From contig JAGOQB010000007.1 of NCBI GenBank assembly GCA_017991675.1, forward strand, positions 124,001-188,000: a stretch of DNA of 64,000 bases, written 5' to 3'. The position numbers and the translations under genes were made by a program. The notes under the pieces were generated by a model. It was not told where the DNA came from. It worked only from the letters and a program-made list of their open reading frames with translations, and did no database searches. The stretch is from Phenylobacterium sp. (GTDB lineage: Bacteria; Pseudomonadota; Alphaproteobacteria; Caulobacterales; Caulobacteraceae). Of this stretch, positions 4,796-19,703 are shown piece by piece. Within the stretch, counting starts at the first letter, position 1. Each line of letters starts with the position of its first letter.

Positions 4796-4870
4796 CGGAG
4801 TTCCGGTCGTGATCATGATGAAACGAGGGCCGGTAGCGCCGACGGTTGATCACCGCCGGCGCCCCTGCAT

Positions 4871-4899
4871 CCCCGCGCCAGGGGATAGACGGCGCGGGG
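4871..4899. other. Intergenic hairpin between the small Cys/Met protein gene and cusC
   Basis: A perfect 9-bp inverted repeat, CCCCGCGCC / GGCGCGGGG, with an 11-nt loop sits in the gap upstream of cusC. No T-run follows it on the minus strand, so it may be an mRNA processing or attenuation element rather than a true terminator. Its role is unproven. Confidence 0.3.
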
Positions 4900-4911
4900 A
4901 TTGGCAGTCGG

Positions 4912-5202
4912 CTAGCCCTTCGGCTGCGGGCTGTGGCGGCCCATGCTCATGCACATGTCGCGCATGGCCGCGTCGCTCTTCATCATCGGGCAGTCGCAAT
5001 CCGCCGCCCGTGCCTGGTCACCCGCAGCGGGCGAGCCTGGGACCTTTTCGACTGTGCGGAAGTAGTCGTGCGGGTTCGAGGACGGCGGGGCGACCCGCAG
5101 GCGGTAGTCGCCCTGCGGCTCAGCGGCGGCCGCATGGGCCGCGGCTGACAGGCCGAGCGTCAGCGCCGCAGCGCTGATCGCAGTGAGTGTTCGGAAGGTC
5201 AT
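4912..5202 (-). CDS. Small exported Cys/Met-rich protein with NPHDYFRTV motif
   Basis: A 96-residue protein of no family I recognise. The ATG at 5202 is chosen because it has a good ribosome-binding site (AGAAGGAT) and opens a signal peptide (MTFRTLTAISAAALTLGL...AHAAAA); a longer upstream reading lacks both. The mature part has the motif APPSSNPHDYFRTVEK. It ends in a metal-ligand-like tail DCDCPMMKSDAAMRDMCMSM, with three Cys and five Met in 20 residues. It lies just upstream of cusC on the same strand. A periplasmic Cu/Ag-binding role is inferred from composition and position only. The same central motif occurs in the 66-residue protein at 5853-6053. Confidence 0.75.
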   Translation of the reverse strand: MTFRTLTAISAAALTLGLSAAAHAAAAEPQGDYRLRVAPPSSNPHDYFRTVEKVPGSPAAGDQARAADCDCPMMKSDAAMRDMCMSMGRHSPQPKG

Positions 5203-5319
5203 GATCCTTCTCCATGCCGATGGCGCCCGTCCGACGGACGGGCTGATCTGATTGAGCGGCGTCATGCGCGCGTCCGCGGTCGCTCGTTGAGAGCTCCTGC
5301 AGACGCTGACGCCAGCGCG

Positions 5320-5712
5320 TCAGGCCAGCGGTCTAGGAGGATGGAAGAGCAAGGGGGCGAGCACGCCCTCGCGCGTTAGGTCGGAGAGCGCGAAGTGCAC
5401 GCCCTCGTAGGTGAACGTATGCGGGATGCTCGCAATCGCCGGAACTGGCGGCGGCACCGTGGCGCAGCCCATCTTACCAATGCAATCGAGCGTGACGCCC
5501 TTACATGGTGTCGGCTTGGAGACCGGCCTGGGCGCATCGGCCATTTGCGACATGCCAGGCATATCGGCGCAGTCCATCCCAGCCATTGCAACGTGGTCAG
5601 CCGGTGCAGCCGCCTCGACCATCGCCATCATTGGCATAGCACGCGCCGTCGTCTGGCCGACGAAGCCGACCAGGGCGAGCGCTGCGACGACGATGCGGAT
5701 CAGGTTCCACAT
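5320..5712 (-). CDS. Small exported Met/His/Cys-rich protein of copper island
   Basis: A 130-residue protein with an N-terminal signal or anchor segment (MWNLIRIVVAALALVGFVG). Next comes a Met-rich stretch with paired His/Cys: MPMMAMVEAA, DHVAMAGMDCADMPGMSQM. A four-Cys segment with spacing CKGVTLDCIGKMGC precedes a conserved-looking tail (HTFTYEGVHFALSD). No family is recognised. The methionine clusters resemble those of periplasmic Cu(I)-binding proteins, and the gene lies in the same-strand run leading to cusCBA. Copper or silver binding is an inference. The ATG at 5712 is the only start that keeps the hydrophobic segment at the N-terminus. Confidence 0.72.
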   Translation of the reverse strand: MWNLIRIVVAALALVGFVGQTTARAMPMMAMVEAAAPADHVAMAGMDCADMPGMSQMADAPRPVSKPTPCKGVTLDCIGKMGCATVPPPVPAIASIPHTFTYEGVHFALSDLTREGVLAPLLFHPPRPLA

Positions 5713-5852
5713 GAGGCGATAGGGGTATGCCCGAGCTTCGGTTTGCGCAAGGTCACAGTTCGGCGGCGACGGCCTGGACGATCAACCGGGCCGTCATTGA
5801 GCAATACGCGGCGCCTGCGCCGATCCCTCGGAATCGACGCAGACTAGGTGCG

Positions 5853-6053
5853 TCAGCGAGGCCGCTCGACCGCGACGGCGTCGGCCTTTTCGCCTTCGGC
5901 CGCGAGCGGTTCACGGGTCACCGTGCGGAAGTAGTCGTGTGGGTTCGAGGATGGCGGCGCGGTGCGATAGGCGTACTGTCCGGACACGGCGCAGGCCCCG
6001 GTCGCCAGCGGCAGGCTGAGCGCCAAGGCGGTGATGGTGAAGCGAATGGTCAT
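5853..6053 (-). CDS. 66-residue probable lipoprotein with NPHDYFRTV motif
   Basis: A very short exported protein: MTIRFTITALALSLPLATGACAVSG carries a signal peptide ending in a lipobox-like ATGAC. The mature part contains TAPPSSNPHDYFRTVTREP and an acidic/basic tail with no further Cys. The 14-residue core APPSSNPHDYFRTV is identical to that of the protein at 4912-5202, so the two are paralogues or share an interaction motif. A GGGGAAG ribosome-binding site precedes the ATG. It lacks the Cys/Met tail of its relative, so it may be an anchor or partner rather than a metal carrier. Function is unknown. Confidence 0.7.
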   Translation of the reverse strand: MTIRFTITALALSLPLATGACAVSGQYAYRTAPPSSNPHDYFRTVTREPLAAEGEKADAVAVERPR

Positions 6054-6185
6054 GGGTCTTCCCCAAGATTGATGGATCCGCCGGGCGGTGAGCCGTCCCG
6101 GCGAGACGGCGCCTGGGCTGGGGCCGGATCTCGCTCGCGAGCGGCCGGCGCAGGCGCGGTGGAACCGACGATTTCGTCGTCGGCC

Positions 6186-6542
6186 TCAGGCCAACAGTTT
6201 CGGGGGCCGATCTGGGCCGGGAGGCCTATGGGGATGCACGGCGGGACCGTTTCCAGGCTCAGGCGCCACTTGAGCGGCTAGGGCCGCCCCACTCGGCGTC
6301 GCCGACAGCACTGCGACCGCGCCGGCACAGATGCTTGCGCACGTTGCGGCGCAGTTCTTCAGCGCCTTGTCGCAGCAGGGAGTGATCGGGGCGCTCGGCT
6401 GTTCGCCGGGAGGCTCATCCATGGACGCCATGGCGTTTGGCCTTGATGCCTCCACGCCGCACTCAATGGTCGCCGCCGAGGCGGTGATCGGGCTGGCCAC
6501 CAGGGCCAGAATGGCGAGGATGGCGATTAGAAGTCGCGCCAT
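6186..6542 (-). CDS. Small exported Cys-rich protein of copper island
   Basis: The ATG at 6542 starts a strong signal peptide (MARLLIAILAILALVASPITASA); the reading frame extends upstream but without signal character. The 118-residue product has a cysteine cluster of spacing CC-x6-C-x3-C-x3-C (CCDKALKNCAATCASIC). A Pro/His-rich tail follows (GPAVHPHRPPGPDRPP). No known family is recognised. It begins 59 nt downstream of the glutaredoxin-type arsC stop on the same strand, so it is either read through from the ars operon or heads the copper operon. A thiol-based metal-binding role in the periplasm is inferred. Confidence 0.68.
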   Translation of the reverse strand: MARLLIAILAILALVASPITASAATIECGVEASRPNAMASMDEPPGEQPSAPITPCCDKALKNCAATCASICAGAVAVLSATPSGAALAAQVAPEPGNGPAVHPHRPPGPDRPPKLLA

Positions 6543-6601
6543 ACGGACATTATCCGCCCGATTGGCTGAAGTGTCACTGGCGGGCGGAGCTTCCGCGCGA
6601 C

Positions 6602-7015
6602 TTAGAGGCGGACGACCTCGCCGTCTTCTTTCGTGAAAGTCTCCGGTGCGCGGTCGAGCAGGTCGAGAACCGCTTCCGAAGGCCGGCACAACCTGACGCC
6701 CTTCGGCGTCACGACGATCGGCCGGTTCACCAGGATCGGGTGTTCGACCATTGCCGCGAGCAGCGCATCGTCGCTGACATCGGGATCTAGGAGGCCAAGT
6801 TCGGCGGCCGGCGTGCCTTTCTCGCGCAGGATGTCGCGCGGTGCGGCGTGCATCTCGCTCAGAAGATGGACAAGCTGTTCGCGGGTCCAGCCGGCCTCGA
6901 GGTACTCGACGACGGCCGGCTCGTAGCCGGCCGCCTGGATCATCGCCAGGGCGTTGCGGGAGGTGCCGCAGGCCGGATTGTGGAAGATGGCGATCGGAAA
7001 TTCGGATGAGCTCAT
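6602..7015 (-). CDS. arsC: Arsenate reductase, glutaredoxin-dependent type
   Basis: Reduces arsenate to arsenite with glutathione and glutaredoxin as electron donors. The 137-residue product has the ArsC thioredoxin-like fold signature HNPACGTSRNAL with catalytic Cys16. The three anion-binding arginines of the family are at Arg64 (ILREKG), Arg98 (VNRPIV) and Arg111 (LCRPSE). These match Cys12/Arg60/Arg94/Arg107 of the plasmid R773 enzyme with a 4-residue shift. The ATG at 7015 overlaps the acr3 stop by 4 nt, so the gene is translationally coupled and last in the ars operon. It sits beside a second, structurally unrelated arsenate reductase. Confidence 0.93.
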   Translation of the reverse strand: MSSSEFPIAIFHNPACGTSRNALAMIQAAGYEPAVVEYLEAGWTREQLVHLLSEMHAAPRDILREKGTPAAELGLLDPDVSDDALLAAMVEHPILVNRPIVVTPKGVRLCRPSEAVLDLLDRAPETFTKEDGEVVRL

Positions 7016-8142
7016 GACTTCACCGGCGAGGCTTTCGGAGTTGGGGTCTGTTCGCGGGCGGCCACCCGGCGCACGGCGCCGCCACGCTCGTACCAACCCT
7101 TGCTGGCGTTCACGATCGCGACGACCGAGAGCATGACCGGGACTTCGATCAGAACGCCGACGACGGTCGCCAAAGCCGCGCCCGACGTGAAGCCGAACAG
7201 GCTGATGGCGGCGGCGACCGCCAGCTCGAAGAAGTTGCTGGCCCCGATCAGGGCCGACGGCCCGGCGACGCAGTGGGCTTCACCGCTAGCGCGGTTAAGC
7301 AGATAGGCCAGCCCGGAGTTGAAGTAGACCTGGATCAGGATCGGAACGGCCAGCATGGCGATGATCGCCGGCTGGGCGATGATCTGCTGGCCCTGGAAGC
7401 CGAACAGCAGGACCAGCGTCGCCAGGAGCGCGATGATCGAGACCGGGCCGAGCGTGGCGAGCGCGCCTTGCAGCGCAGCTTCGCCGCGGGTCATCAGGGC
7501 CTTGCGGGCGACCTGGGCGATGATCACCGGAATGACGATGTAGAGCCCGACGGAGAGCATCAGGGTCTCCCAGGGCACGGTGATCGCGGAAATGCCCAGC
7601 AGCAGACCGACGATCGGAGCAAAAGCCACGATCATGATGGCGTCGTTCACCGCGACCTGGCTGAGCGTGAAGTTCGGCTCGCCGCGCGTCAGGTTGCTCC
7701 AGACGAACACCATCGCGGTGCAAGGCGCAGCCGCGAGTAGGATCAGCCCGGCGATGTAACTGTTGATCTCGCCGGCCGGCAGGTAGGGGCGGAACAGATA
7801 GCCGATGAAGAAGGCGCCCAGGGCTGCCATCGAAAACGGCTTCACCGCCCAGTTGATGAACAGGGTCACCCCGATCCCGCGCCAATGGCGGCCGACCTGG
7901 CGCATCGCGCCGAAGTCGACCTTCATCAGCATCGGAATGATCATCAGCCAGATCAGGACGGCGACCGGCAGATTGACCTTGGCGACCTCGGCCGAGCCAA
8001 TCAGCTGGAAGGCAGGCTGAAAGAAGTGGCCCAAACCAATGCCGAGCACGATGCAGAGCGCTACCCAGAGGGTCAGGTAGCGCTCAAAAAGCGACATGGC
8101 TTTCGGCGCTTCGGGCGCCGTCTGTTCACGCGACACAGTCAT
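7012..8142 (-). CDS. acr3: ACR3-family arsenite efflux permease
   Basis: Inner-membrane As(III) (possibly also Sb(III)) exporter of the ACR3/BART superfamily, 376 residues with about ten hydrophobic segments starting at MSLFERYLTLWVALCIVLGI. Family motifs seen include the transmembrane-4 segment LLAAAPCTAMVFVWSNL, which contains the conserved essential Cys of ACR3, and GASNFFELAVAAAISLFG. It lies between two arsC genes under the upstream arsR. Length and motifs are typical and the reading frame is intact. Some annotations call this arsB, but it is not of the ArsB (IT superfamily) type. Confidence 0.95.
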   Translation of the reverse strand: MTVSREQTAPEAPKAMSLFERYLTLWVALCIVLGIGLGHFFQPAFQLIGSAEVAKVNLPVAVLIWLMIIPMLMKVDFGAMRQVGRHWRGIGVTLFINWAVKPFSMAALGAFFIGYLFRPYLPAGEINSYIAGLILLAAAPCTAMVFVWSNLTRGEPNFTLSQVAVNDAIMIVAFAPIVGLLLGISAITVPWETLMLSVGLYIVIPVIIAQVARKALMTRGEAALQGALATLGPVSIIALLATLVLLFGFQGQQIIAQPAIIAMLAVPILIQVYFNSGLAYLLNRASGEAHCVAGPSALIGASNFFELAVAAAISLFGFTSGAALATVVGVLIEVPVMLSVVAIVNASKGWYERGGAVRRVAAREQTPTPKASPVKS

Positions 8143-8152
8143 CCTCTCAAAG

Positions 8153-8692
8153 TCATTCGGTCCCGGCGGGCTCGCCCTGGGTCTTGCCGATGTCGTCCAG
8201 GCGCTTCTGCAGCGAGAGGCTGTCGAGCGAGGTGATCGGCAGGTTCACGAAGATGCTGATGCGATTGTTCAGCATCCGGTAGGCGTCGGCGAAGGCGAGG
8301 GTCTTCTCGGCCTCGCTACCCTCGACCGCTGCGGGGTCAGGCAGACCCCAATGGGCGCTCATCGGCTGACCCGGCCAGATCGGGCAGACCTCGCCAGCGG
8401 CGTTGTCGCAGACGGTGAATACGAAATCGAGTTCGGGGGCCTCGGGGTTGTTGAGCGCGGCGAACTCGTCCCAGGGCTTCGAGCGCAACTGGTCGGTCGG
8501 GTAGTTGAGCTTCTGCAGCAGCGTGATGGCGTAGGGATTGACCTTGCCGGCCGGCATGGAGCCGGCGGAGTAGGCTTTGAACTTGCCCGCCCCGACCCGG
8601 TTCATGATCGATTCCGCGAGGATCGATCGCGCCGAATTGCCGGTGCAGAGGAAGAGGACGTTGAAGGGCAGCTTCTTCTCGGGGTGGAGCAT
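8153..8692 (-). CDS. Arsenate reductase / LMW protein-tyrosine-phosphatase family
   Basis: A 179-residue ArsC of the low-molecular-weight phosphatase superfamily. The N-terminal P-loop is FLCTGNSARSILAES (C-x5-R, with Cys16 as nucleophile). The family's Asp-Pro loop follows (GLPDPAAVEG), and downstream is VFTVCDNAAGEVCPIWPG, where the second and third redox cysteines of this class are expected. It probably uses thioredoxin or mycothiol/glutaredoxin-type recycling; the partner cannot be read from sequence. It lies directly behind arsR and 10 nt before acr3. Together with the glutaredoxin-type enzyme at 6602-7015 it gives the operon two unrelated arsenate reductases. Confidence 0.9.
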   Translation of the reverse strand: MLHPEKKLPFNVLFLCTGNSARSILAESIMNRVGAGKFKAYSAGSMPAGKVNPYAITLLQKLNYPTDQLRSKPWDEFAALNNPEAPELDFVFTVCDNAAGEVCPIWPGQPMSAHWGLPDPAAVEGSEAEKTLAFADAYRMLNNRISIFVNLPITSLDSLSLQKRLDDIGKTQGEPAGTE

Positions 8693-8702
8693 GGCGCGTT
8701 CC

Positions 8703-9062
8703 CTAGGCTTTGACGAGGTCGTCCGCGCAGCAGGCGCTGCGGCTGAGCATGTCGGCCAAGGGCGCGCAGATCTCCGGCGATCCGGCGCAGCAGTCTTCCA
8801 TCAGGAAGGCCAGCAGCGCGCTCATGGCGTCGTAGTGGGCGGTGTAGATGATCGAGCGGCCTTCGCGGCGCGAGCCGACCAAGCCGGCATGGCTCAGGAC
8901 GGTGAGGCTCGCCGAAAGCGTGTTCGGCAAAATCTCAAGCCTGCGAGCCAGCTCTCCGGCCGCCAAACCAGACGGGCCGGCTTGAACCAACAGGCGGAAG
9001 GCGGCGAGGCGGTTTTCGTGGGCGAGCGCGGCGAGGCTGGTGACGGCGGCTTTCATTTCCAT
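8703..9062 (-). CDS. arsR: ArsR-family arsenite-responsive repressor
   Basis: A winged-helix SmtB/ArsR repressor of about 119 residues (MEMKAAVTSLAALAHENRLA). The recognition helix region is GELARRLEILPNTLSASLTV. The sensor is C-terminal: the vicinal pair in EDCCAGSPEIC (Cys91, Cys92, Cys99) resembles the Acidithiobacillus-type As(III) site rather than the CxC of R773 ArsR, and a further CC pair is near the end. An in-frame ATG at 9077 would place five extra residues inside the operator-like palindrome, so 9062 (or 9056) is preferred. It heads the operon arsR-arsC-acr3-arsC and diverges from arsH. Confidence 0.88.
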   Translation of the reverse strand: MEMKAAVTSLAALAHENRLAAFRLLVQAGPSGLAAGELARRLEILPNTLSASLTVLSHAGLVGSRREGRSIIYTAHYDAMSALLAFLMEDCCAGSPEICAPLADMLSRSACCADDLVKA

Positions 9063-9085
9063 ATTTCCAACATACATGAAATATG
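9060..9085. promoter_or_regulatory. Probable ArsR operator between arsR and arsH
   Basis: A perfect inverted repeat, CATATTTC-N10-GAAATATG, lies at the arsR start in the divergent arsR/arsH gap, where an autoregulatory ArsR site is expected. It is one of the few AT-rich spots in the region. Binding is inferred. Confidence 0.6.
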
Positions 9086-9135
9086 CGACCGTTCAATGAC
9101 GCTCGCGCTAGCTGCTTCGCAAAATTGAGTACCCG

Positions 9136-9870
9136 ATGACCGATTTTCCGGCCCTTGAGCCGCAGTTCCTTGACGCCCCGACGCTCGCCAAGCTGGAGCC
9201 GCCGAAGGTCTCCTCGCACCCGCCGCGCATCCTGCTGCTCTACGGCTCGCTGCGCGAACGGTCCTACAGCCGCTTCCTGACCGAGGAGGCCGCTCGCATC
9301 CTTGAGCGCCTTGGCGCAGAGACGAAGATCTTCGATCCCACCGGCTTGCCTCTGCCGGACGCGGAGTCGCCCGATCACCCCAAGGTGCAGGAACTGCGCG
9401 CACTGTCCCTCTGGTCGGAAGGCCAGGTGTGGTGCAGTCCCGAACGCCACGGCGCGGTCACCGGGATCATGAAGGCCCAGATCGACTGGATTCCTCTGGA
9501 GGTCGGCAGCGTTCGCCCGACGCAAGGACGCACGCTGGCGGTCATGCAAGTCAGCGGCGGCTCACAGTCGTTCAACGCCGTGAACACGCTGCGCCTGCTG
9601 GGACGCTGGATGCGAATGATCACCATTCCGAACCAGTCCTCGGTGGCCAAAGCCTATCAGGAGTTCGACGAGGCCGGCCGCATGAAGCCGTCGGCCTACT
9701 ACGATCGGGTGGTCGACGTGATGGAGGAACTGGTGAAGTTCACTCTGCTGACCCGAGGCCGCTCCGACTATCTGGTCGACCGCTATAGCGAGCGGAAGGC
9801 CGAGGGGCGGGTGACGGTCGGCGACGAACTGGGCGCCATCGCCATGGCTCATGAGCGGAAGGCCAGCTAG
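9136..9870 (+). CDS. arsH: ArsH NADPH-dependent flavoprotein
   Basis: FMN-binding flavodoxin-like oxidoreductase of 244 residues that oxidises trivalent organoarsenicals in characterised members. The FMN phosphate loop is [19 protein letters not shown]. Other family landmarks are [39 protein letters not shown] (which covers the typical ArsH segment) and [20 protein letters not shown]. It diverges from arsR across a 73-nt gap that carries the palindrome. Its stop TAG shares a base with the GTG start of the next gene, so the two are co-translated. ArsH in the cluster suggests that organoarsenicals, not only inorganic As, are handled. Confidence 0.93.
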
Positions 9871-11135
9871 TGCGGCCGCTCACTCAGGAAGAGCAGCTCA
9901 ACCGAGATTGCTTCTGTATCGACGTGGATCCGGACCACGTCTGGTCGATTGTCGACCGGGCAGGGGGCGGCGTCGTCCCGCTCGACGTGCTGAAGGCCGC
10001 ACGTCCGCACCTCTTCTCCGAGGCCCCGGTGTTCCTGTCGGCCGCCGACCTGGCGGCGATGCAAGCCGTCGTGGCGGCCATCGAGGCGGTCGCAGAGTTG
10101 CCTGCCTTCCAGGACCTCGTGCTGGGCTGGGCGCCAGAGATCGCGAAGGCTGACCCTGGGCCGCGCGGCGCCTTCATGGGCTACGACTTCCACCTGACCC
10201 CTGAGGGGCCCAAGCTCATCGAGGTCAACACAAACGCCGGAGGCGCCTTCCTGAACGCCTTGCTGGCGCAGGCCCAGGTCGCCTGCTGCCCTCAGGTGCG
10301 GGCGCTCGTGCCGGCGGCGACGCCGTTGGAGGATTTCGAGGCCGCCGCCTGGCGCATGTTCGAGGCCGAGTGGCGACTGCAGGGAAGGGCAGGGCATTCG
10401 CGCGTTGTCGCCATCATCGATGAGCGGCCGGAGGAGCAGTATCTCTATCCCGAGTTCCTGCTGGCCCAGGCCTTCTTTGAGCGCCACGGCGTGGAGGCGC
10501 TGATCGCGGATCCCCGAGACCTGCGCTTAGAAGGCGGGCGCCTGCGCCTGGGCGGCGTGGCCATCGACATGGTCTACAATCGCCTGGTCGACTTCTCGTT
10601 TTGCCGGCCCGAACACGCCGTCCTTCGGCAGGCCTATTCGACCGGCGACGTGGTCGTGACTCCCAACCCGCGCAATCACGCCCTGCTGGCTGACAAGCGC
10701 AACCTGACGATACTGTCGGACCCACAGCGGTTGGAAGAGCTGGGTGTTCCAACGGGCCTCCGCCGCGCGTTGGCTCGCCTACCTGATGCGCGCCTGGTGA
10801 CGCCCGAGAACGCCGACGCGCTTTGGCGGGGGCGAAAATCGCTGTTCTTCAAGCCGGCGAACGGCCATGCCGGGAAGGCGGTCTATCGCGGCGACAAGCT
10901 GACGCGCGGCGTCTGGGAGACGATCGTCCGGGGCGGCTACATCGCTCAGGACTTTGCGCCGCCCAGCGAGCGCCACGTCCAGGTCGACGGTGACCCGCAG
11001 CCCCGAAAGATGGACGTCCGCCTCTACACCTATGCCGGCGAGACGATGCTCGCCGCCGCGCGTCTCTATCAGGGCCAGACGACCAACTTCCGGACGCCGG
11101 GAGGCGGATTTGCGCCGGTGATCACGCTCGCATAG
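9870..11135 (+). CDS. ATP-grasp-like protein coupled to arsH
   Basis: A 421-residue protein starting at GTG 9870, which overlaps the arsH stop (TAGTG). It resembles ATP-grasp ligases of the glutathione-synthetase kind: the segment LIEVNTNAGGAFLNALL matches the metal-binding end of the fold. The segments LADKRNLTILSD, SLFFKPANGHAGKAVYRG (a likely ATP-binding loop) and GGYIAQDFAPPSER fit the remaining grasp elements, although their order differs from the standard linear fold. A thiol- or peptide-ligase role, perhaps making an arsenic-binding thiol, is inferred from its coupling to arsH. The substrate is unknown, and I do not recognise a named family. Confidence 0.75.
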   Translation: MRPLTQEEQLNRDCFCIDVDPDHVWSIVDRAGGGVVPLDVLKAARPHLFSEAPVFLSAADLAAMQAVVAAIEAVAELPAFQDLVLGWAPEIAKADPGPRGAFMGYDFHLTPEGPKLIEVNTNAGGAFLNALLAQAQVACCPQVRALVPAATPLEDFEAAAWRMFEAEWRLQGRAGHSRVVAIIDERPEEQYLYPEFLLAQAFFERHGVEALIADPRDLRLEGGRLRLGGVAIDMVYNRLVDFSFCRPEHAVLRQAYSTGDVVVTPNPRNHALLADKRNLTILSDPQRLEELGVPTGLRRALARLPDARLVTPENADALWRGRKSLFFKPANGHAGKAVYRGDKLTRGVWETIVRGGYIAQDFAPPSERHVQVDGDPQPRKMDVRLYTYAGETMLAAARLYQGQTTNFRTPGGGFAPVITLA

Positions 11136-11311
11136 TTCGAAGCGCCTGAACGTGCAGGGAGGCGCTTTCATGATTCACGCGTGCGAGTTCGGCGAGACCT
11201 AGGTCTCTTCGTGACACGCAAGGGCGACGCGGCAGATCGAGGGCTAAAGAAGCCCGGCAGCGTGTGCGCTTGGCGGTGGGAGGCGAGTGGGTCCGGCGCG
11301 CATTTTTCTGG

Positions 11312-11342
11312 TTGATCCTCTAGCAGCTAGAGCAATTAGGGT
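11312..11342 (+). promoter_or_regulatory. MerR-family-type promoter (19-bp spacer with dyad)
   Basis: A -35 element TTGATC (11312-11317) and a -10 element TAGGGT (11337-11342) are separated by 19 bp, the over-long spacing typical of MerR-activated promoters. The spacer contains the perfect dyad CTCTAG-CAG-CTAGAG (11318-11332), close in sequence style to CadR/PbrR/ZntR operators. It lies 25 nt upstream of the transporter ATG. No matching MerR gene adjoins it, and the window's own CueR recognises a different dyad. Confidence 0.72.
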
Positions 11343-11367
11343 CGGCTTGGAAACAAGGTCGCCCACG

Positions 11368-12237
11368 ATGACGAAGACCGACGCTAGCGCCCTAGACGTG
11401 GTTCGCTACCGGATCACCGGCATGGACTGTGGCGACTGCGCCGCCAAGATCGAGAAGGCGGTCGGCAAGCTGCCCGGCGTAGAGGAAGCACGCGTCTCCA
11501 TCGCCACGTCGCTGATGACGCTGAAGCTTGACAACCCGGCGCTCCGCGCGCCGACGGTCGAGCAGGCGGTGGAGTCGCTCGGCTATCGGCTCGACCGGCT
11601 GCGAGAAGCGGTTACGGACGACGACGATTTGCCGGACCTCAGTCATGTTACGCCGGCCTACAAGCGGGCGCTCTGGCTCGTCGTTTTGATCAACGCTGGC
11701 TATGGCCTGGTCCAGATGGCCGCCGGTTTTGTGGCAGGCTCGCAGGCGCTTAAGGCCGACGCATTGGACTTCATGGGCGACGGGACCATCACCTTCTTGG
11801 GCCTCCTGGCCATCGGCTGGTCGCTCGTTTGGCGCGCGCGCTCCGCCCTCATGCAGGGCGTATTCCTAGGGCTGCTGGGCGCCGGCGTCCTGCTCAACAC
11901 GGCCTATCGGGTGCTGGTGCTCAACCGTCCGGAGGCCGAGATCATGGGGGTCTTCGGCGTGATCGCCCTGGTCGCCAACGTGATCGCCGCGCTCCTGCTC
12001 GTGCCGCACCGGAGCGGCGATGCTAACGCGAAGGCGGTCTGGCTGTTCTCGCGCAACGACGCGCTCGGCAACCTCGCCGTAGTCATCGCCGCGGGCCTCG
12101 TCGCCTGGACCGGCACGGCCTGGCCCGACCTCGTCGTGGCCGTGATCATCGCGGGCCTCTTCCTTCAATCCTCCTGGTCGATCGTCCGCCATGCGCGGAC
12201 GGACCTGCGCGAGGCGCGCCTCTTGGCGGCGGCATGA
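11368..12237 (+). CDS. HMA-domain/cation-diffusion-facilitator fusion transporter
   Basis: A 289-residue membrane protein from ATG 11368. Residues ~8-75 form an HMA metal-binding domain (YRITGMDCGDCAAKIEKAV), a variant of the GMxCxxC site. The rest is a six-helix CDF-like transporter with acidic residues DDDDLPD in the linker. The CDF metal site is altered. The helix-2 motif, normally H-x3-D, reads DALDFMGD (His replaced by Asp), and the helix-5 motif reads LFSRNDALGN (His replaced by Phe). The metal is therefore uncertain. The gene is controlled by a MerR-type promoter and overlaps the next gene by 4 nt. The in-frame start further upstream (11287) would lie before the promoter, so it is rejected. 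Confidence 0.82.
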   Translation: MTKTDASALDVVRYRITGMDCGDCAAKIEKAVGKLPGVEEARVSIATSLMTLKLDNPALRAPTVEQAVESLGYRLDRLREAVTDDDDLPDLSHVTPAYKRALWLVVLINAGYGLVQMAAGFVAGSQALKADALDFMGDGTITFLGLLAIGWSLVWRARSALMQGVFLGLLGAGVLLNTAYRVLVLNRPEAEIMGVFGVIALVANVIAALLLVPHRSGDANAKAVWLFSRNDALGNLAVVIAAGLVAWTGTAWPDLVVAVIIAGLFLQSSWSIVRHARTDLREARLLAAA

Positions 12238-14516
12238 GTGCGGGGATGAGACGCGGTCCAACGCCATTGTCTCCCAGGGCGCCGCTGGGATTGCCGGCGC
12301 GGGCGGTCAAAGATCTGCATCAGGCCGTGGCGCACGCCAACGCCGGTCGCTGGACGGACGCCCGGGGCTATGCAGAGAGGGTCCTGGCCGTGCAGCCTCG
12401 GGACCCGTCGGCCATGAATGTGCTCGGCACGGTCGCGTTGAACACGGGGCGCGCCGGGGAGGCCATCACGTGGTTCGAGCGGGCGGCGACAGGGCAGCCG
12501 AAAAATCCGTTCATTCAGTACAACCTGGGGGAGGCCCACCGGCGCGCGCAAGCTTACGAGGCTGCCGCCGCGGCGTTCGTACGCGCCGGCCGGCTGAAGC
12601 CGGATTTCGCCGAGGCCTTCGCCGCCGCCGGGGACACGCTTCGGCGGCTCGGCCGAAGCGGCGAGGCCGAGGCTCACTACAAGAAGGCGCTTCGAATCGC
12701 ACCGGCCTTGGCCGCGGCGCTGAGCGGGTATGGCCTGTTGCGCCTCGGCGTCAGCGATCCGGCCGGCGCCGCCGACCTCTTCGCTGCGGGCCTGAGTGCA
12801 ACGTCGCTCGGCCATCCATTGCGAGCCGCCCTGCTCACGAACCTCGGCCTTGCGCTTCTGCAGCTCGGGCAAGGTGTTGGGGGGCTCGACGCGCTCGCGC
12901 AGGCCGTGGAGGCAGCCCCCGACGACGACGGGGCTTGGCGGCGGTTGGCCCGGGCGCTGCGGCACACGCGCGTGGCTCCGGCGACGCCCGTCTTTCGCGC
13001 GCTCCTTCTCCAGCTGTTCGATCGCACTGACGTCAATCCCCGCAACCTGGCGACCGCGGCCATCGCCGTCCTGCGTCAGGATCCGGAGATCGATCGGCTC
13101 CTCGGATCGATCGCCGTTGCCCCGCGGATGTTGGCGAAGACGCTGGAGCGCGAGGCCGCGGCCGCCACTCGGCTGGTGGCGGATCCGCTGTTCCGAGGCC
13201 TCCTGGCCTCAGCGCCGATCCCGGACGTCGGGATCGAGTTGCTGCTTGTGCAACTGCGGGCGGATCTTCTGGTGCTTGCAGACCGAGAACCCGAGGCGCT
13301 CGAAGGGGAGCTCGGCCTCGCGGTTGCGCTCGCCCGGCAGGCGTTCCTCAACGAGTACGCCCACTTCGCCGAAGCGGAGGAGCAACGGCGGGTGGACGCC
13401 CAGATCGCCGCCCTCGACCACGGCGAACTGGACGCTGGAGACGCGGCGCGGGTCGCGATCGTGGCCGCCTATCGGCCGCTGGCGTCGACGCCCTTAGCCG
13501 CGCGTCTCCGGGCCAGGCCCCTGCCGGCGCTTGCCGACCTGCTGCGCGAACAGCTAGCCGAGCCGGCCGAGGAGGCGGCGCTGCGCGCCGCCCTTCCGAT
13601 TCTCAAGTCTCCAACCGACGCCGTCTCGCTCGCGGTCCGGGCGCAGTACGAGCAGAATCCCTATCCCCGCTGGACCCGCGGCAGCCTTGACGAGCCGCTG
13701 GCCTTCCGCTCGGCGGTGCAGAGCGCTGTCCCGGACTTGCCGGCCTGCGAGGTTCCTGACCTTGAGCGGCCGCGCGTGCTTGTGGCCGGCTGCGGCACGG
13801 GCCTCGAAACCCTGCGCGTGGCGAACATCTACCGCGGCGCCTCGATCCTTGCCGTCGACCTCAGTGCGACGAGCCTCGGCTACGCCATGCGCAAGGCCCG
13901 GGAATACGAGCTGACCGAGGTCCAGCACCTGCAGGCCGACATCCTCGACCTGCCAGCGCTCAGCGAGCGCTTCGACCTAATCGACAGCTTCGGAGTGCTG
14001 CACCACATGGCCGATCCGGCCAAGGCGCTGCAGGTTGTCGCCGAGTTGCTCAAGCCCGAAGGATTCCTTCTCGTTGGTCTCTACAGCGAGATCGGCAGGC
14101 AAGCGGTGGTGGCGGCGCGAGCGCACATCGCGCGGTCCGGCTATCGGGATGACGCCGAAGGCATACGGGCGTTGCGGCGGGACCTGATGCTCGACGGCGA
14201 GCCGCCGGAGCTGGAGGGCGTGATGAGCCCGGCCTCCGACTTCTGGACGCTCTCGGACTGTCGGGACCTACTGTTCCACGTGAACGAGCATCGCTTCACC
14301 CTGCTGCAGGTCGGCGAATTGCTGGGCGGTGCCGGGCTCGAGTTCCTCGGCGTGCAGTTCGGCCATGCGGCCGATCAGGCGCGTTACCTTGCGGAGAACC
14401 AGCGAACGGCCGCCCTGCGCGATTTCGAGCGTCTGCATCGGTACGAGCTGCAGTATCCCGAGACCTTCGGGGACACCTATCGGCTCTGGGCCCGTCCTAG
14501 GAGGCCATCGAGGTGA
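12234..14516 (+). CDS. TPR protein with C-terminal SAM-dependent methyltransferase
   Basis: A 760-residue soluble protein. The first ~260 residues form tetratricopeptide repeats (VLAVQPRDPSAMNVLGTVAL, EAHYKKALRIAPALAAALSG). A helical middle region follows. A class I methyltransferase starts with QYEQNPYPRWTR (~residue 471), with motif I VLVAGCGTGLETL (~515) and the DSFGVLHHMADPAKAL post-motif. Such TPR-methyltransferase fusions occur in alphaproteobacteria, but I know of no assigned substrate. Here it is locked between a metal transporter and a MAPEG-like membrane protein by 4-nt overlaps on both sides. That implies a role in the same metal- or metalloid-related response. It might methylate a metalloid, a lipid or a protein; the sequence does not decide. 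Confidence 0.85.
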   Translation: MSAGMRRGPTPLSPRAPLGLPARAVKDLHQAVAHANAGRWTDARGYAERVLAVQPRDPSAMNVLGTVALNTGRAGEAITWFERAATGQPKNPFIQYNLGEAHRRAQAYEAAAAAFVRAGRLKPDFAEAFAAAGDTLRRLGRSGEAEAHYKKALRIAPALAAALSGYGLLRLGVSDPAGAADLFAAGLSATSLGHPLRAALLTNLGLALLQLGQGVGGLDALAQAVEAAPDDDGAWRRLARALRHTRVAPATPVFRALLLQLFDRTDVNPRNLATAAIAVLRQDPEIDRLLGSIAVAPRMLAKTLEREAAAATRLVADPLFRGLLASAPIPDVGIELLLVQLRADLLVLADREPEALEGELGLAVALARQAFLNEYAHFAEAEEQRRVDAQIAALDHGELDAGDAARVAIVAAYRPLASTPLAARLRARPLPALADLLREQLAEPAEEAALRAALPILKSPTDAVSLAVRAQYEQNPYPRWTRGSLDEPLAFRSAVQSAVPDLPACEVPDLERPRVLVAGCGTGLETLRVANIYRGASILAVDLSATSLGYAMRKAREYELTEVQHLQADILDLPALSERFDLIDSFGVLHHMADPAKALQVVAELLKPEGFLLVGLYSEIGRQAVVAARAHIARSGYRDDAEGIRALRRDLMLDGEPPELEGVMSPASDFWTLSDCRDLLFHVNEHRFTLLQVGELLGGAGLEFLGVQFGHAADQARYLAENQRTAALRDFERLHRYELQYPETFGDTYRLWARPRRPSR

Positions 14517-15085
14517 GACAGCCCCTTGTGTCGCCGCACGTCGACCTTCCGAAGGAGCAGCGAGCCGTGCTTCAGCAGTCGCTCCTGGCCTTAGCCGTCT
14601 GCGCCCCGATCCTCGTGATCGCTAGCCTGGGCCTGCCCAGGATCTTCACCTTTCCCGAGCCCCTGGTGGAGCGACTGGCCTTCGCACTCAGGGCCGGACT
14701 CGTAGTCGTGCTTTGGGTCGTGCTGGGCGTGCGGATGGTCGCCAAGGTGCGGTTTGAGTCCGCGGAGGACAATGCAGGTTCCGCCTACAGCCGGCCAAGT
14801 CCTCGCCTAGCGGTGCCAAGAGCCTTCCTCCAGAACACCCTCGAACAGGCGTTCATCACGGTCGTCGCAATCCTCGCACTCGCTACGGTCGGCGGCGAAG
14901 CGGCGCTAGCCTACGTTATTGCGACCGTCGTGCTCTTCAGCCTCGGGCGGGTGACTTTCCTGCGCGGCTATCCGCATGGCGCGGGCGGTCGCGCCTTCGG
15001 CATCGCCATGACGGTGCTCCCCGGCCTCGGCGCCATTGGCTGGGCGGCGATCGACGTTGCGTCCGAGGTGGCGGCCTTGGGCTGA
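14513..15085 (+). CDS. MAPEG-family-like four-helix membrane protein
   Basis: A 190-residue protein starting at GTG 14513, inside the stop of the upstream gene. It has about four hydrophobic helices (LLALAVCAPILVIASLGL, LRAGLVVVLWVVLGVRMVAK, AFITVVAILALATVGGEAAL and a C-terminal pair). The segment RAFLQNTLEQAFITVVAIL, followed by GRVTFLRGY, resembles the Asn/Glu-containing core of MAPEG proteins (membrane-associated eicosanoid/glutathione metabolism). A glutathione-dependent membrane activity would fit a metal-stress operon, but activity is not shown. It is the last gene before the tRNA fragment. Confidence 0.72.
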   Translation: MRQPLVSPHVDLPKEQRAVLQQSLLALAVCAPILVIASLGLPRIFTFPEPLVERLAFALRAGLVVVLWVVLGVRMVAKVRFESAEDNAGSAYSRPSPRLAVPRAFLQNTLEQAFITVVAILALATVGGEAALAYVIATVVLFSLGRVTFLRGYPHGAGGRAFGIAMTVLPGLGAIGWAAIDVASEVAALG

Positions 15086-15181
15086 GCTCGACTCCATCCG
15101 CCGCCACAGGTGGTGAAGCCGTGACAGTGCTGCCGCATCGAAGCGGCTGGACCCCGCCGCATATGTCGCCGTACCGCACGA

Positions 15182-15202
15182 GTTACACAGTCGGTTACAC
15201 AG
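15182..15202 (+). repeat. Direct repeat GTTACACAG next to tRNA fragment
   Basis: GTTACACAG occurs at 15182-15190 and 15194-15202, one helical turn apart, just inside the putative island end. An AT-rich stretch follows. Such pairs can be arm-type integrase sites or excisionase sites. This reading depends on the attachment-site interpretation of 15243-15314. Confidence 0.3.
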
Positions 15203-15242
15203 CTCGCTTGACGCGGAAATAAAATATATTAGAATCAAAAGA

Positions 15243-15314
15243 TTGGTGGAATCGGAGGGGACTCAAAATCCGGTTCCGAAAGGAGTGTCGGTTCGAGCCC
15301 GACCGCCCGCACCA
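15243..15314 (+). other. Truncated tRNA-Leu(CAA) 3' part, candidate attachment site
   Basis: From 15259 the sequence reads like the last 56 nt of a tRNA-Leu: anticodon loop CTCAAAA (anticodon CAA), a long variable arm (TTCCGAAAGGAG), a T-arm with GGTTCGAGCC, a 3' acceptor strand CGCCCGC and encoded CCA. Upstream, TGGTGGAATCGG resembles a D-arm, but the D-loop remainder is missing and the 5' side of the anticodon stem (GGGGA) no longer pairs fully with TCCGG. No GCGGGCG 5' acceptor strand precedes it; AT-rich DNA does. It cannot fold into a functional tRNA. It fits the 3'-end duplicate left by integration of an element into tRNA-Leu. Confidence 0.75.
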
Positions 15315-15336
15315 ACTGCTCAAGGCCTTGTGGCGC

Positions 15337-16191
15337 TTAGCCCGGCCGGGTGGCGGAAAGTCCATACATCAGCGGAATCCGGGGCACGGACGGGGGCGGG
15401 GCGAGGCGGCCGCCGCCGAGGTCCTGCATGTCCGCAAACGCCGCCCAGCCGTTCGAATAGGGGTACTCCACCAGCCGCTCGATCGTCAGGCCGGCCTCGA
15501 GCAGGGCGCTGACGACTTCGCCCACGCCCCAATAGAATTCGAAGGCCGGATTGGGATTGCGGAAACCCTCGACCCCCGGGTGATAGGCGTCGAGCGCCAG
15601 GGTCTCGCCGGAATCGGCCACATAGTCGCCGACGCCGTCCGGCTCCTCGATCGGCCCCTCGGCGAAGTAGTCGTGGCGCGGCGTCCACTGCGGATCGAAC
15701 ACCATCGCAAAGGGATGGAACTCGACCATGCCGAAGCGGCCGCCGGACTCCAGCAGATCGGCGACCCCGCGCCCCCAGGCCTTCAGGTCCGACAGCCAGC
15801 AGATCGTGCCGTAGGAGGTGAAGACCCGTTCGAAGCGGCGGTCTTCCGCCCGCGCCTTGGCGAACCAGTCGAACAGGTCCGAGCGTTCGAACCGGGCCGC
15901 CACGCCGCTCTCGGCCGAGAGCCTGGCGGCGAAGGCGACCGCCTCGTCGGAGATATCGACGCCGGTCACGCGTGCGCCGAACTGCGCCAGGCTCAGGCTG
16001 TCCTGGCCGGAATTGCACTGCAGGTGCGCGAGGCTGCGCCCGGCGATGTCGCCCAGCATCTCCAGCTCTTCGGGATAGAGCGTCGATCCGCCCGCGCGGA
16101 AGAACGCCGCCTGATCGCCCTTGTGGCTGTTGTGGGCGCGGGTCGCCTCGTTCCAGGAGCGGCGGTTGGCTTCGTGCAGGTCGGGTCGCAT
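15337..16191 (-). CDS. Class I SAM-dependent methyltransferase
   Basis: A 284-residue soluble methyltransferase. The N-terminal RRSWNEATRAHNSHKGDQAA is followed by motif I (LAHLQCNSGQDSLSLAQFGA), GVDISDEAVAFA as motif II, and FTSYGTICWLSDL as the acceptor-site region. The CNSGQD form of motif I is typical of a subgroup of uncharacterised alphaproteobacterial methyltransferases. Its ATG lies one base from the stop of the GNAT gene upstream on the same strand, so the two form a pair. Substrate unknown. This is the first ordinary chromosomal gene beyond the tRNA-Leu fragment. Confidence 0.85.
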   Translation of the reverse strand: MRPDLHEANRRSWNEATRAHNSHKGDQAAFFRAGGSTLYPEELEMLGDIAGRSLAHLQCNSGQDSLSLAQFGARVTGVDISDEAVAFAARLSAESGVAARFERSDLFDWFAKARAEDRRFERVFTSYGTICWLSDLKAWGRGVADLLESGGRFGMVEFHPFAMVFDPQWTPRHDYFAEGPIEEPDGVGDYVADSGETLALDAYHPGVEGFRNPNPAFEFYWGVGEVVSALLEAGLTIERLVEYPYSNGWAAFADMQDLGGGRLAPPPSVPRIPLMYGLSATRPG

Positions 16192-16192
16192 G

Positions 16193-16767: not shown

Positions 16768-17211
16768 TCAGTTTCCGTGAACCAGGGCCCGCCCGCCCTT
16801 CGGTTTCGGATCGGCCGGCAGGGTTCCCTGGGTCAGGTCGGCGAGGATCGGGCAGTCGGGACGGTCGTCGCCGGCGCAGCAATGCGAGAGGTGACGCAGG
16901 GTGTCGGCCATGGCCTGCATCTCGGCGATGCGCGCGTCGAGATCGGCCAGGTGCCGCTCGGCGATCGCCTTGACCTCGCGGCTGGGGCGCACCCGATCGC
17001 GCCACAGCGACAGGAGCTGGGTGATCTCCGGCATCGAGAAGCCGAGCGAGCGGGCGCGGCGGATGAAGCGCAGCTCGTTGATCTCCCGCTCGTCGTACTC
17101 GCGATAGTTGGAGTCGGTCCGCGCCGAGGGCCGCACCAGCCCGATCTCGTCGTAGTAGCGGATCATCTTGGTCGTCACGCCGGACGCCTTGGAAGCCTGG
17201 CCGATGTTCAT
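16768..17211 (-). CDS. cueR: CueR-like MerR-family copper-responsive regulator
   Basis: A 147-residue MerR activator. The N-terminal winged helix-turn-helix is MNIGQASKASGVTTKMIRYY. A dimerisation helix follows, and the C-terminal metal loop contains HCCAGDDRPDCPIL. The Cys pair C-x7/8-C typical of Cu(I)/Ag(I) CueR (Cys112/Cys120 in E. coli) is matched by the Cys of HCC and DRPDC. The ATG has a GAGGAG ribosome-binding site and lies 14 nt after the copA stop, so cueR is expressed with copA. Two CueR-type operators lie between copA and copZ, which fits autoregulation of the whole cluster. Confidence 0.9.
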   Translation of the reverse strand: MNIGQASKASGVTTKMIRYYDEIGLVRPSARTDSNYREYDEREINELRFIRRARSLGFSMPEITQLLSLWRDRVRPSREVKAIAERHLADLDARIAEMQAMADTLRHLSHCCAGDDRPDCPILADLTQGTLPADPKPKGGRALVHGN

Positions 17212-17225
17212 GGGAATCTCCTCTG

Positions 17226-19703
17226 TTAGGCGGCGACCGGAGGCCGGAAGGCCTTCAGTCGCAAGGCGTTGGTCAGGACGCTCACGCTGGACAGCGCCAT
17301 GGCGCCGGCCGCCACCATCGGCGACAGCAGCAGGCCGAAGGTCGGGAACAGCACCCCGGCGGCGACCGGGATCAGGATGACGTTGTAGCCGAACGCCCAG
17401 ACCAGGTTCTGGCCGATGTTGCGCATCACCGCCCGGCTCAGGGCGGCGGCGGTGGCCACGGCCCGCAGGTCGCTGCGCATCAGCACCACGTCGGCGCTCT
17501 CGATGGCGACATCGGTGCCTGCGCCCATGGCGATGCCGACGTCGGCCGCGGCCAGGGCCGGGGCGTCGTTGACCCCGTCGCCGACGAAGGCGATGGCGCC
17601 GAACCGTTCCCGCAGCGCCTTGATCGCCGCGACCTTGCCGTCCGGCAGCACCTCGGCCTCGATCTCGTCCAGGCCCAGCTTGGCAGCCACGGCGCGGGCG
17701 GTGTGGGCGTTGTCGCCCGTGATCATCGCCACCTTCAGCCCCATGGCGTGCAGCGCGGCCAGCGCCTCCGGCGTCGTCGGCTTGATCGGGTCGGCGACCG
17801 CCAGGATGGCGGCCAGCTTGCCGTCGAGCGCGACATAGAGCGGGCTCTTGGCCTCGGCCCCCAGCCGCTCGGCGGTCGCGGCGAACGCGCCGACGTCGAG
17901 GCCGAGCTTGGCCATGAAGCGGTCGGCGCCGACCTGCACCAGCCGCCCGCCCGCGCGGGCCTGGGCGCCGAAGCCGGGAACCGCCTCGAAGTCCTGCGGC
18001 TCGGCGACCGCCAGGCCCTTGGTCTTGGCCGCCTCGACGATGGCCTCGGCGATCGGGTGCTCCGAGCGGGCCTCGACCGCCGCGGTCAGGGCCAGGACCT
18101 CGTCTTCGCCGAAGCCGTTCGCGGCCTGCAGGTCGGTCAGGGCCGGGCGGCCCTCGGTCAGGGTGCCGGTCTTGTCGAAGGCCACCACCTTGACGTCGCG
18201 CAGCGCCTGCAGCGCCTCGCCGCGCCGGAACAGCACGCCGAGCTCGGCGGCCTTGCCGGTGCCGACCATGATCGAGGTCGGCGTCGCCAGGCCCATGGCG
18301 CACGGGCAGGCGATGATCAGCACCGCCACGGCGTTGACCAGGGCGAAGGCGAGCGCCGGGCTCGGCCCGAACACCATCCAGGCGGCGAAGGTCAGCAGCG
18401 CGGCGGCGATCACCACCGGCACGAACCAGGACGTCACCTTGTCCACCGTCGCCTGGATCGGCAGTTTCGAGCCCTGGGCGGCTTCGACCATGCGCACGAT
18501 CTGCGCCAGCATGGTTTCGGAACCGACCTTGGTGGCGCGGAAGCGGAAGGCCCCGGTCTTGTTGACCGTCCCGCCGACCACGGTCGCGCCGATCGTCTTC
18601 TCCACCGGGATCGGCTCGCCGGTGATCATGGATTCGTCGATGAACGAGGCGCCGTCGACCACTTCGCCGTCGACCGCGACCCGTTCGCCCGGGCGCACCG
18701 CGACGACGTCGCCGGCGACCACCTCGGCGATCGCGACCTCGACTTCCTCGCCGCCGCGGACGACGCGGGCGGTCTTGGCCTGCAGGGTCATCAGCCGCTT
18801 GATCGCCTCGCTGGTGCGGCCCTTGGCCTGGGCCTCGAACAGCCGGCCCAGCAGGATCAGGGTGACGATGACCGCGGCGGCCTCGTAATAGACGTGGTCG
18901 GCGCCGGCCGGCAGCAGGAACGGCGCGAAGGTCGCCACCGCCGAATAGGCGAAGGCCGCGCTGGTCCCCAGCACCACCAGCGAGTTCATGTCCGGGGTGC
19001 GGCGGATCAGGTTCGGCACGCCCTTGCGGAAGAACCGCAGGCCCGGGCCGAACAGCACGATCGCGGCCAGCACGAAGCTGGCCAGCCGCCAGGGCTGCTC
19101 GCCGATGGATCCGGCCAGCCAGTGGTGGACGCCGGGGATGAAGTGGCGGCCCATCTCGATCACGAACAGCGGCAGGGTGCCGGCCGCGGCGACGGCGACG
19201 GCGCGCTTCAGGCCGGTGATCTCGGCCTCGCGGGCTTCGCGCTCGCGGTCGGCCAGGTCGGGGGCGGCGGCCGGGTCGATGTCCTCGGCGCCATAGCCGA
19301 TGGCTGCGACCGCGGCGATCAGCTGCGCGGTCTCGGCGCCGCCGGCCAGGGCGCGGACATGGGCCCGCTCGGTCGCCAGGTTCACCTGGGCGTCCAGCAC
19401 GCCGGGGACGGCCTTCAGCGCCTTCTCGACCTTGGCCACGCAGGAGGCGCAGGTCATGCCCTCGATCTTGAGGTCGACGGTGCGGTCCAGCGGCTCGTAG
19501 CCGGCCTTGCGGATCGCCTCGACCACGGCGGCGGTGTCGCCCTCCGGGGTCAGCTCCACATGCGCCCGCTCGGCGGCCAGGTTGACGCTGGCGGCGGCGA
19601 CCCCGGGCACGGCGGCGATGGCTTTTTCCACGCGTCCCACGCACGAGGCGCAGGTCATGCCCAACACGGGGATGTCCAGCGGCTTCAGGGTTATCTGCGA
19701 CAT
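17226..19703 (-). CDS. copA: Cu(I)-exporting P1B-type ATPase
   Basis: An 825-residue copper-efflux ATPase from ATG 19703, preferred because a GAGGAG ribosome-binding site precedes it and the frame's earlier ATGs lie inside the promoter. Two N-terminal HMA domains carry GMTCASC (Cys18/Cys21 and Cys85/Cys88). Eight transmembrane helices include the CPC metal site ([15 protein letters not shown], Cys466/Cys468). The actuator loop has TGEPIP. The phosphorylated Asp is D510 in DKTGTLTEG, and the hinge is [10 protein letters not shown]. All catalytic motifs are intact. It is transcribed with cueR and diverges from the chaperone gene copZ. Confidence 0.97.

Follow-up and report, generated by a model that had tools for sequence, protein, structure and literature searches.

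We analysed a stretch of 64,000 nucleotides from a Phenylobacterium sp. genome (assembly GCA_017991675.1, contig JAGOQB010000007.1, positions 124,001 to 188,000; hereafter the window), in which three genes lie head to tail on the + strand at 11368-15085. The first gene (11368-12237) encodes a cation exporter of 289 amino acids, identified by Pfam, NCBIfam and alignment, in which an HMA domain is joined to a cation diffusion facilitator (CDF) transporter. The second gene (12234-14516) encodes a protein of 760 amino acids that combines tetratricopeptide repeats (TPR) with a methyltransferase domain, as recognized by Pfam, PDB sequence searches, and an AlphaFold2 model searched with Foldseek. The third gene (14513-15085) encodes a 190-residue membrane protein of the MAPEG family with four long helices, identified by PF01124, AlphaFold2, Foldseek and residue conservation. 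A preliminary description of the locus had reported that neighboring genes overlap by 4 nt, and both overlaps are present in the window sequence, as ATGA (12234-12237) between the CDF and methyltransferase genes and as GTGA (14513-14516) between the methyltransferase and MAPEG genes. Together with a predicted MerR-type promoter/operator upstream (11312-11342, + strand), these features of the sequence support the view that the three genes form an operon whose promoter has MerR geometry and which sits at the right edge of a metal island.

The predicted promoter consists of a -35 element, TTGATC, at 11312 and a -10 element, TAGGGT, at 11337, separated by a 19-bp spacer that contains CTCTAGCAGCTAGAG and in which the dyad is CTCTAG-CAG-CTAGAG. 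A search with the pattern TTGATCCTCTAGNNNCTAGAGNAANTAGG, allowing up to 3 mismatches, gave one match in the window, none in 100 shuffles of the window, and one in the whole 3.03-Mb assembly; the MerR geometry proposed earlier for a shared promoter holds. We checked 13 relatives of the unit (L020, L021, L027-L036 and L038; L numbers denote loci in our collections) for the operator, TTGATCCTCTAG-N3-CTAGAG, and in 12 of these it precedes the CDF gene in an identical or similar form. The operator is exact in six of them (L027-L029, L031-L033), and L035 shows the right half only, close to the contig start. Upstream in L020, L028-L032 and L038 there is a second, reversed copy of the operator, which faces a divergent cytochrome c-FTR1 gene; the reading frame of this gene was read in L020 (where it is split in two), L030 and L031.

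In the assembly there are two sites with exact CTCTAG-N3-CTAGAG arms, and none with a backward-pattern control. The second site is 42 kb distant and within the same island, some 45 bp ahead of where a MerR-type gene (C25:92862-93242) probably starts (C25 is the contig bearing the window, and C25:140834 corresponds to window position 16834). The best NCBIfam model for this gene is CadR-PbrR, at 113 bits against a cut-off of 151.45. A copy of the dyad with one mismatch faces an HMA P-type ATPase gene (C25:118164-120284) that scores best with the zinc/cadmium/mercury/lead ATPase model. When up to 4 mismatches were allowed, a 139-kb stretch gave 8 matches of the dyad at 6 sites, and five mononucleotide shuffles of that stretch gave 0, 0, 3, 0 and 0 matches. 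We infer that the dyad sites form one regulon of the Pb/Cd/Zn type. To the right of the island end, a CopA-type gene is followed by another MerR-type gene (C25:140834-141211, window 16834-17211); we rejected the latter as the regulator because the dyad points to the MerR gene at C25:92862.

That the gene order might be unique to this genome, a concern of the preliminary description, was ruled out by plasmids and by loci from a genome collection. A tblastn search of 72,556 plasmid records with the TPR-methyltransferase, over at least 80% of its length, found two plasmids, those of P. zucineum HLK1 and Caulobacter sp. FWC26, and in both, CDF and MAPEG genes flank the TPR-methyltransferase gene. 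On the FWC26 plasmid, the trio lies downstream of genes for TolC, an adaptor, CzcA, DUF190 and an exchanger. In a genome-collection scan with a MAPEG alignment, in which 80 of 118 relatives were kept, the TPR-methyltransferase gene directly precedes the MAPEG gene in 12 loci (L027-L038) from Phenylobacterium, Caulobacter and an uncultured Caulobacteraceae. The gene before it is the HMA-CDF gene in L027-L035 and L038, and L036 has a short CDF gene and a cytochrome c-FTR1 gene there. No TPR-methyltransferase was found in the other listed Caulobacteraceae MAPEG loci (Brevundimonas L040 and L103, Asticcacaulis L085). The methyltransferase/MAPEG junction is the only one whose 4-nt overlap persists across relatives, with a start codon there in 14 of 14 loci. 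For the CDF/methyltransferase junction, measured up to the first possible start of the methyltransferase gene, the 4-nt overlap was seen only in L027, an identical copy of the window unit. The other loci have a gap of 6-7 nt (nine loci: L020, L021, L028-L032, L034, L035), a 1-nt overlap (L033) or another gene interrupting the junction (L036); L037 ends at a contig edge and L038 is frameshifted at this point.

To count neighbors, the 80 MAPEG loci were grouped into 65 clusters at 90% identity (cluster numbers in parentheses), and neighbors were called by phmmer with our own reference proteins at more than 40 bits, MerR standing for any MerR-type gene. Within 4 kb of the MAPEG gene there is a CDF gene in 36 (29) loci, a MerR-type gene in 34 (25), LspA in 20 (18), a P-type ATPase in 19 (17), CzcA in 19 (14), and a match to cytochrome c-FTR1 in 31 (24), namely to the permease in 28 and to the cytochrome half alone in 3. 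A methyltransferase gene lies within 3 kb in 33 loci (25), and 30 loci (23) have it together with a CDF gene inside the 4-kb limit. These counts are lower bounds, because only 62 of the 80 loci have about 4 kb on both sides; among those 62, a CDF gene is found in 28 and a CDF gene together with a methyltransferase gene in 26. By chance, a CDF gene would lie within 4 kb of a random gene in about 1% of cases, a rough baseline derived from a single genome (the query used found 3 CDF genes in the assembly, which measures 3.03 Mb and is 71% complete).

The MAPEG alignment and tree comprised 66 rows, that is, 65 of the 80 loci and the window protein; L046, which has an in-frame stop (8001-8516, Sphingomonas yabuuchiae), near-duplicates and partial loci were excluded. 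The rows with a TPR-methyltransferase form one branch (support 99/89). The second arrangement, a CDF gene with a solo methyltransferase, needs 6 changes on the tree, 3 of them forced by well-supported branches, and was therefore gained or lost more than once. This solo methyltransferase, found in sphingomonads and others, is UbiE-like in its matches and not fused to TPR. We rejected the idea that the solo and TPR-fused enzymes are one orthologous family: the TPR-fused domain is 30% identical over 106 residues (30 bits) to the solo methyltransferase encoded on the island (C25:115867-116571), whereas the latter is 53% identical (210 bits) to that of Sphingobium. The two families share the S-adenosylmethionine (SAM) core only. 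The island gene is part of a segment (C25:115867-122408) in which a ZntA-like HMA ATPase gene is divergent from a cytochrome c-FTR1 gene with the near-identical operator between them, which resembles a pbr-like arrangement, and in which an HTH_18 gene and the solo methyltransferase gene lie behind the ATPase gene. Near-identical MAPEG neighborhoods also occur in metagenome-assembled genomes labeled Verrucomicrobiales and Caulobacteraceae (L048, L050 and L074), and a Paceibacterota label among them goes with Proteobacteria-like metal genes; these odd labels reflect either transfer or binning error.

The exporter gene matches the Pfam families HMA (PF00403, 5.5e-15) and Cation_efflux (PF01545, 2.3e-16; 60.6 bits, above the cut-off of 26.6), and the NCBIfam CDF superfamily model TIGR01297 scores 72.8 bits, below its cut-off of 82.35. 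The HMA domain is N-terminal, bears GMDCGDC, and is followed by the CDF transmembrane core. The usual C-terminal cytoplasmic CDF domain was not found in the protein; the Cation_efflux match extends to residue 280 of 289 and leaves no room for it. CDF members without this domain exist. Relatives about 70% identical are found on alphaproteobacterial plasmids (Agrobacterium, Rhizobium and Pararoseomonas), with 1065 records matched. At the Agrobacterium plasmid locus, a MAPEG gene lies about 10 kb off. On two rhizobial plasmids (L134 and L135), an ArsR-type or unnamed regulator gene is divergent from the HMA-CDF gene, which is followed by genes for an exchanger, CcdA, LspA and a cytochrome P450; L134 has a further P450 gene, which adjoins a MAPEG gene about 10 kb away.

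The 760-residue protein matches Methyltransf_11 (3.5e-18) and TPR_2 (2.9e-16) in Pfam, and consists of TPR repeats (residues about 22-240), a helical part to about 460, and a class I SAM methyltransferase domain (about 464-755). Among the 25 NCBIfam families listed for it, none reached its cut-off. In the PDB, the best solved methyltransferase match is 8hkr, a protein lysine methyltransferase (6.4e-22 by profile, 3.4e-17 by single sequence), with an alignment of about 200 residues that extends beyond the SAM core, followed by 3mgg (uncharacterized), 6uv6 (a glucose O-methyltransferase), others, and PKMT2 (5doo). A Foldseek search with the AlphaFold2 model (mean pLDDT 79.9) placed TPR proteins on top among the best 50 of 1943 matches, with 8hkr as the first methyltransferase at ranks 20 and 21 and PKMT1 (5do0) at rank 45. 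From sequence and model, the domain is probably related to protein lysine methyltransferases, and methyl transfer to lysines is predicted. A search of the genomes of the family at an E value of 1e-20 found the protein in 8 of 149, including its own, and the other seven relatives are at most 40% identical, suggesting that this form is rare in the sample. A relative on a plasmid of Hydrogenophaga sp. BPS33 (L117, 4810-6882; 41% over the methyltransferase region) has porin genes on one side and CzcE-CzcCBA on the other; a metal P-type ATPase gene is near, and no MAPEG gene is annotated within the examined stretch. On a plasmid of Novosphingobium capsulatum (L022, 11962-12792), only TPR pieces are present, apparently a broken copy, behind a cluster of resistance-nodulation-division transporter and exchanger genes and about 9 kb from a MAPEG gene.

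The third protein matches MAPEG (PF01124) at 5.1e-8 and 33.5 bits, above the gathering cut-off of 23.4, and its AlphaFold2 model, which is confident (mean pLDDT 94.6), has a four-helix membrane fold. Foldseek ranks 1-38 are all MAPEG structures (mPGES-1, LTC4 synthase and MGST2), with a probability of 0.99-1.00 and E values of 0.028-0.21; we take 4bpm, titled merely "human integral membrane enzyme", to be mPGES-1. Over the 66 aligned rows, N108, R146 and R160 are conserved in all, and E111 and Y153 in 65, positions that we presume to correspond to the glutathione-binding residues of the enzymes.

The operon adjoins a probable island boundary. The 3' part of a tRNA-Leu(CAA) gene lies at 15259-15320 (+ strand; 92% identical over 62 bp to the intact gene at C25:49972-50056), just past the operon, and is probably the right end of the island. 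The stretch of about 89 kb between the two tRNA copies carries genes of the VirB4 and T2SSE families (type IV secretion), at least two CzcA genes, P-type ATPase genes and an FTR1 gene. P. haematophilum DSM 21793 (NZ_JACIDK010000009.1; L027) matches window positions 1-9000 and 6513-15317 with 100% identity. The identity stops at 15317, and to the right it is 84.6% (15353-16192) and 90.2% (16798-18883). The island thus appears to have been shared recently between the two lineages and to end at the tRNA fragment, in agreement with the position at a right end that was proposed earlier. A tyrosine integrase (PF00589) was not matched on contig C25; four matches lie on other contigs. Past the tRNA fragment, P. 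haematophilum has about 4.8 kb of extra DNA (L027, 8805-13576), with genes for a TonB-dependent receptor and a PepSY-domain protein. To the left of the operon are arsenic genes: ACR3 (7012-8142, - strand), an ArsC-like gene (8153-8692, -), an ArsR-type regulator gene (8703-9077, -), ArsH (9136-9870, +), and an open reading frame of 421 amino acids (9870-11135, +) whose GTG start overlaps the end of arsH. ACR3, ArsR and ArsH score above their NCBIfam cut-offs and the ArsC-like protein below its own, and the 421-residue product has no Pfam or NCBIfam match at an E value of 0.1. The genes at 7012-11135 are context and not members of the operon.

With little more than even confidence, we favor a reading of the sequence in which the three genes form an inducible operon that is accessory to a resistance regulon of the Pb/Cd/Zn type and lies on a mobile island of about 89 kb, with roles for the MAPEG protein and a protein methyltransferase included. 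An activator of the MerR family, CadR/PbrR-like and encoded at another place on the island, would bind CTCTAG-N3-CTAGAG and, in its metal-bound form, activate transcription; we propose this step because the operator is identical at both dyad sites. The HMA-CDF protein, judging from its family, would take up a divalent soft metal via its CxxC domain and export it. The MAPEG protein would use glutathione at the membrane to reduce lipid hydroperoxides or to conjugate electrophiles arising from metal stress, and would so limit lipid-peroxide or thiol damage, as its fold, its conserved residues and known MAPEG activities suggest. The TPR-methyltransferase, from its sequence and fold relatives, would work in the cytoplasm and methylate proteins, probably on lysines, with the TPR part selecting the substrate. 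That substrate is the weakest link of the proposed mechanism.

Several observations weigh against this reading. The identity of the metal as Pb/Cd/Zn is weak: the island MerR gene scores below the CadR-PbrR cut-off with CueR close behind (105.7 bits), and the MerR proteins adjacent to the module in Sphingobium YBL2 (124.8 versus 123.7) and Rhizorhabdus (123.1 versus 105.5) match CueR best, also below cut-off. In three of three inspected loci, from the 1065 records matched, the related HMA-CDF genes have no adjacent methyltransferase or MAPEG gene, so the exporter seems not to need the two enzymes. For the methyltransferase, the quality of the domain model is moderate, 3mgg and the glucose O-methyltransferase 6uv6 outscore PKMT2, the SAM core is common to all class I methyltransferases, and a relative in Azospirillum lies amid glycosyltransferase genes. 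For the MAPEG protein, no Foldseek match reached an E value of 0.001 (best 0.028) and a PDB sequence search gave no match; in addition, position 104 is alanine in all 66 rows, where eukaryotic MAPEG enzymes have an arginine four residues ahead of NxxE. Finally, 19 of the 80 MAPEG loci have no CDF, FTR1, MerR, P-type ATPase or CzcA gene in the available flank.

Other explanations must be considered. The methyltransferase might modify a lipid, quinone or thiol made or used by the MAPEG protein, so that the membrane is altered under metal stress. In sphingomonads and others the module recurs with another methyltransferase, a UbiE-like one, which would fit such a pathway, as would LspA in 20 of the 80 MAPEG loci and the cytochrome P450 gene downstream of HMA-CDF in two of three inspected plasmid loci. 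However, the closest match of the TPR-fused domain is a protein methyltransferase, and proteins are the usual ligands of TPR repeats; we consider this pathway unlikely, if worth keeping in mind. Somewhat less probable still is that the methyltransferase and the MAPEG protein serve general stress or surface functions and were simply gathered in metal islands. The 19 MAPEG loci without metal neighbors and the Azospirillum relative beside glycosyltransferase genes suit this view, but order, operator and overlap are conserved, a CDF gene with a methyltransferase gene occurs in 23 of 65 clusters against the rough 1% for CDF alone, the association with the solo methyltransferase was gained or lost repeatedly, and the Hydrogenophaga relative sits by a CzcE-CzcCBA cluster.

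The same operon logic could apply with copper or another soft metal as the metal that induces and is exported, since CueR is the best or second-best model for three of the MerR genes examined. We regard this as improbable, because the MerR gene linked to the dyad matches CadR-PbrR best and the near-identical operator faces an ATPase of the zinc/cadmium/mercury/lead type. There is still less to recommend a route in which the MAPEG protein and the methyltransferase make or modify a glutathione-type metal conjugate that HMA-CDF exports: the MAPEG fold and the CxxC of the HMA domain are compatible with it, but CDF proteins transport free cations. The preliminary description had suggested methylation of a metal or metalloid, and the adjoining arsenic genes are in line with this. 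Nonetheless, the ArsM models score far below their cut-offs on the TPR-methyltransferase (NF041537, 37.8 of 510 bits; NF041536, 31.7 of 575; NF040539, 29.5 of 240), the solved methyltransferase closest to this protein acts on protein lysines, and the operator is of the MerR and not the ArsR type. Metal or metalloid methylation was therefore rejected as the principal explanation and is scarcely credible to us, whereas the operon, the MerR geometry and the position on a metal island, as given in that interpretation, were supported, and the gene order recurs elsewhere.

A further proposition, which we put forward tentatively and with more doubt than belief, is that metal-inducible lysine methylation of proteins is part of bacterial heavy-metal resistance, with a TPR-guided methyltransferase, co-transcribed with an exporter, modifying envelope or cytoplasmic proteins alongside a membrane-repairing MAPEG enzyme. 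Such a methyltransferase might, for example, mask metal-binding lysines or tune the exporter. The repeated gain or loss of the CDF-methyltransferase-MAPEG grouping and its use of two unrelated methyltransferases suggest that both methylation and glutathione chemistry at the membrane may regularly belong to such systems and have been overlooked. Among the matches listed from the open-licence literature, no title or abstract opening names a CDF-methyltransferase-MAPEG unit, in agreement with the earlier claim that no such combination had been described, and no published role in metal resistance was found there for a TPR-methyltransferase or a MAPEG protein. The passages on MAPEG proteins in PMC10434023 and PMC11089254 do not concern such a unit. 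Heavy-metal resistance operons are a known kind of system; the new part is the two extra enzymes, which here occur together with a metal exporter in a unit that is conserved and operator-linked.

We compared each part with known systems. The HMA-CDF operons of alphaproteobacterial plasmids share with the window an exporter about 70% identical, but differ in their adjoining ArsR-type regulator genes and in being followed by LspA with CcdA, P450 or other genes, with no adjoining TPR-methyltransferase or MAPEG gene. Among methyltransferases, Rv2067c (8hkr; PMC10739865), the best match by sequence and fold, the Rickettsia outer-membrane protein lysine methyltransferases PKMT1 and PKMT2, and KmtA of Acinetobacter sp. 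Tol 5 (PMC11784438), likened here by its description only, have a class I SAM core as the window protein does. KmtA-like enzymes are reported to be widespread in Gram-negative bacteria (PMC11784438). The window protein differs from all of these in its long N-terminal TPR part and its metal-operon setting. The window MAPEG protein has the four-helix membrane fold of mPGES-1, LTC4 synthase and MGST2, and its conserved NxxE and R/F/Y/R residues presumably correspond to theirs, but it is about 30-60 amino acids longer than the solved chains and has no detectable sequence similarity to them in the PDB. A cyanobacterial MAPEG protein, Sll1147, is described as guarding against lipid peroxidation (PMC6798054).

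A further system for comparison is the lead resistance operon pbrUTRABCD on pMOL30 of Cupriavidus metallidurans, which has a MerR-family activator, a promoter with a 19-bp spacer and dyad, and an iron/lead transporter, PbrT (PMC3431237). The window promoter is alike in its MerR type, 19-bp spacer and dyad, and in relatives of the module an operator copy faces a divergent cytochrome c-FTR1 gene, and LspA (PbrC-type) genes lie nearby. We assume that cytochrome c-FTR1 belongs to the same broad class as PbrT. The exporter of the pbr operon is a P-type ATPase, PbrA, whereas that of the window is HMA-CDF; a ZntA-like ATPase with a near-identical operator is encoded at another site of the island. In contrast to pbr, the window unit has no adjacent regulator gene, and it adds a TPR-methyltransferase and a MAPEG protein.

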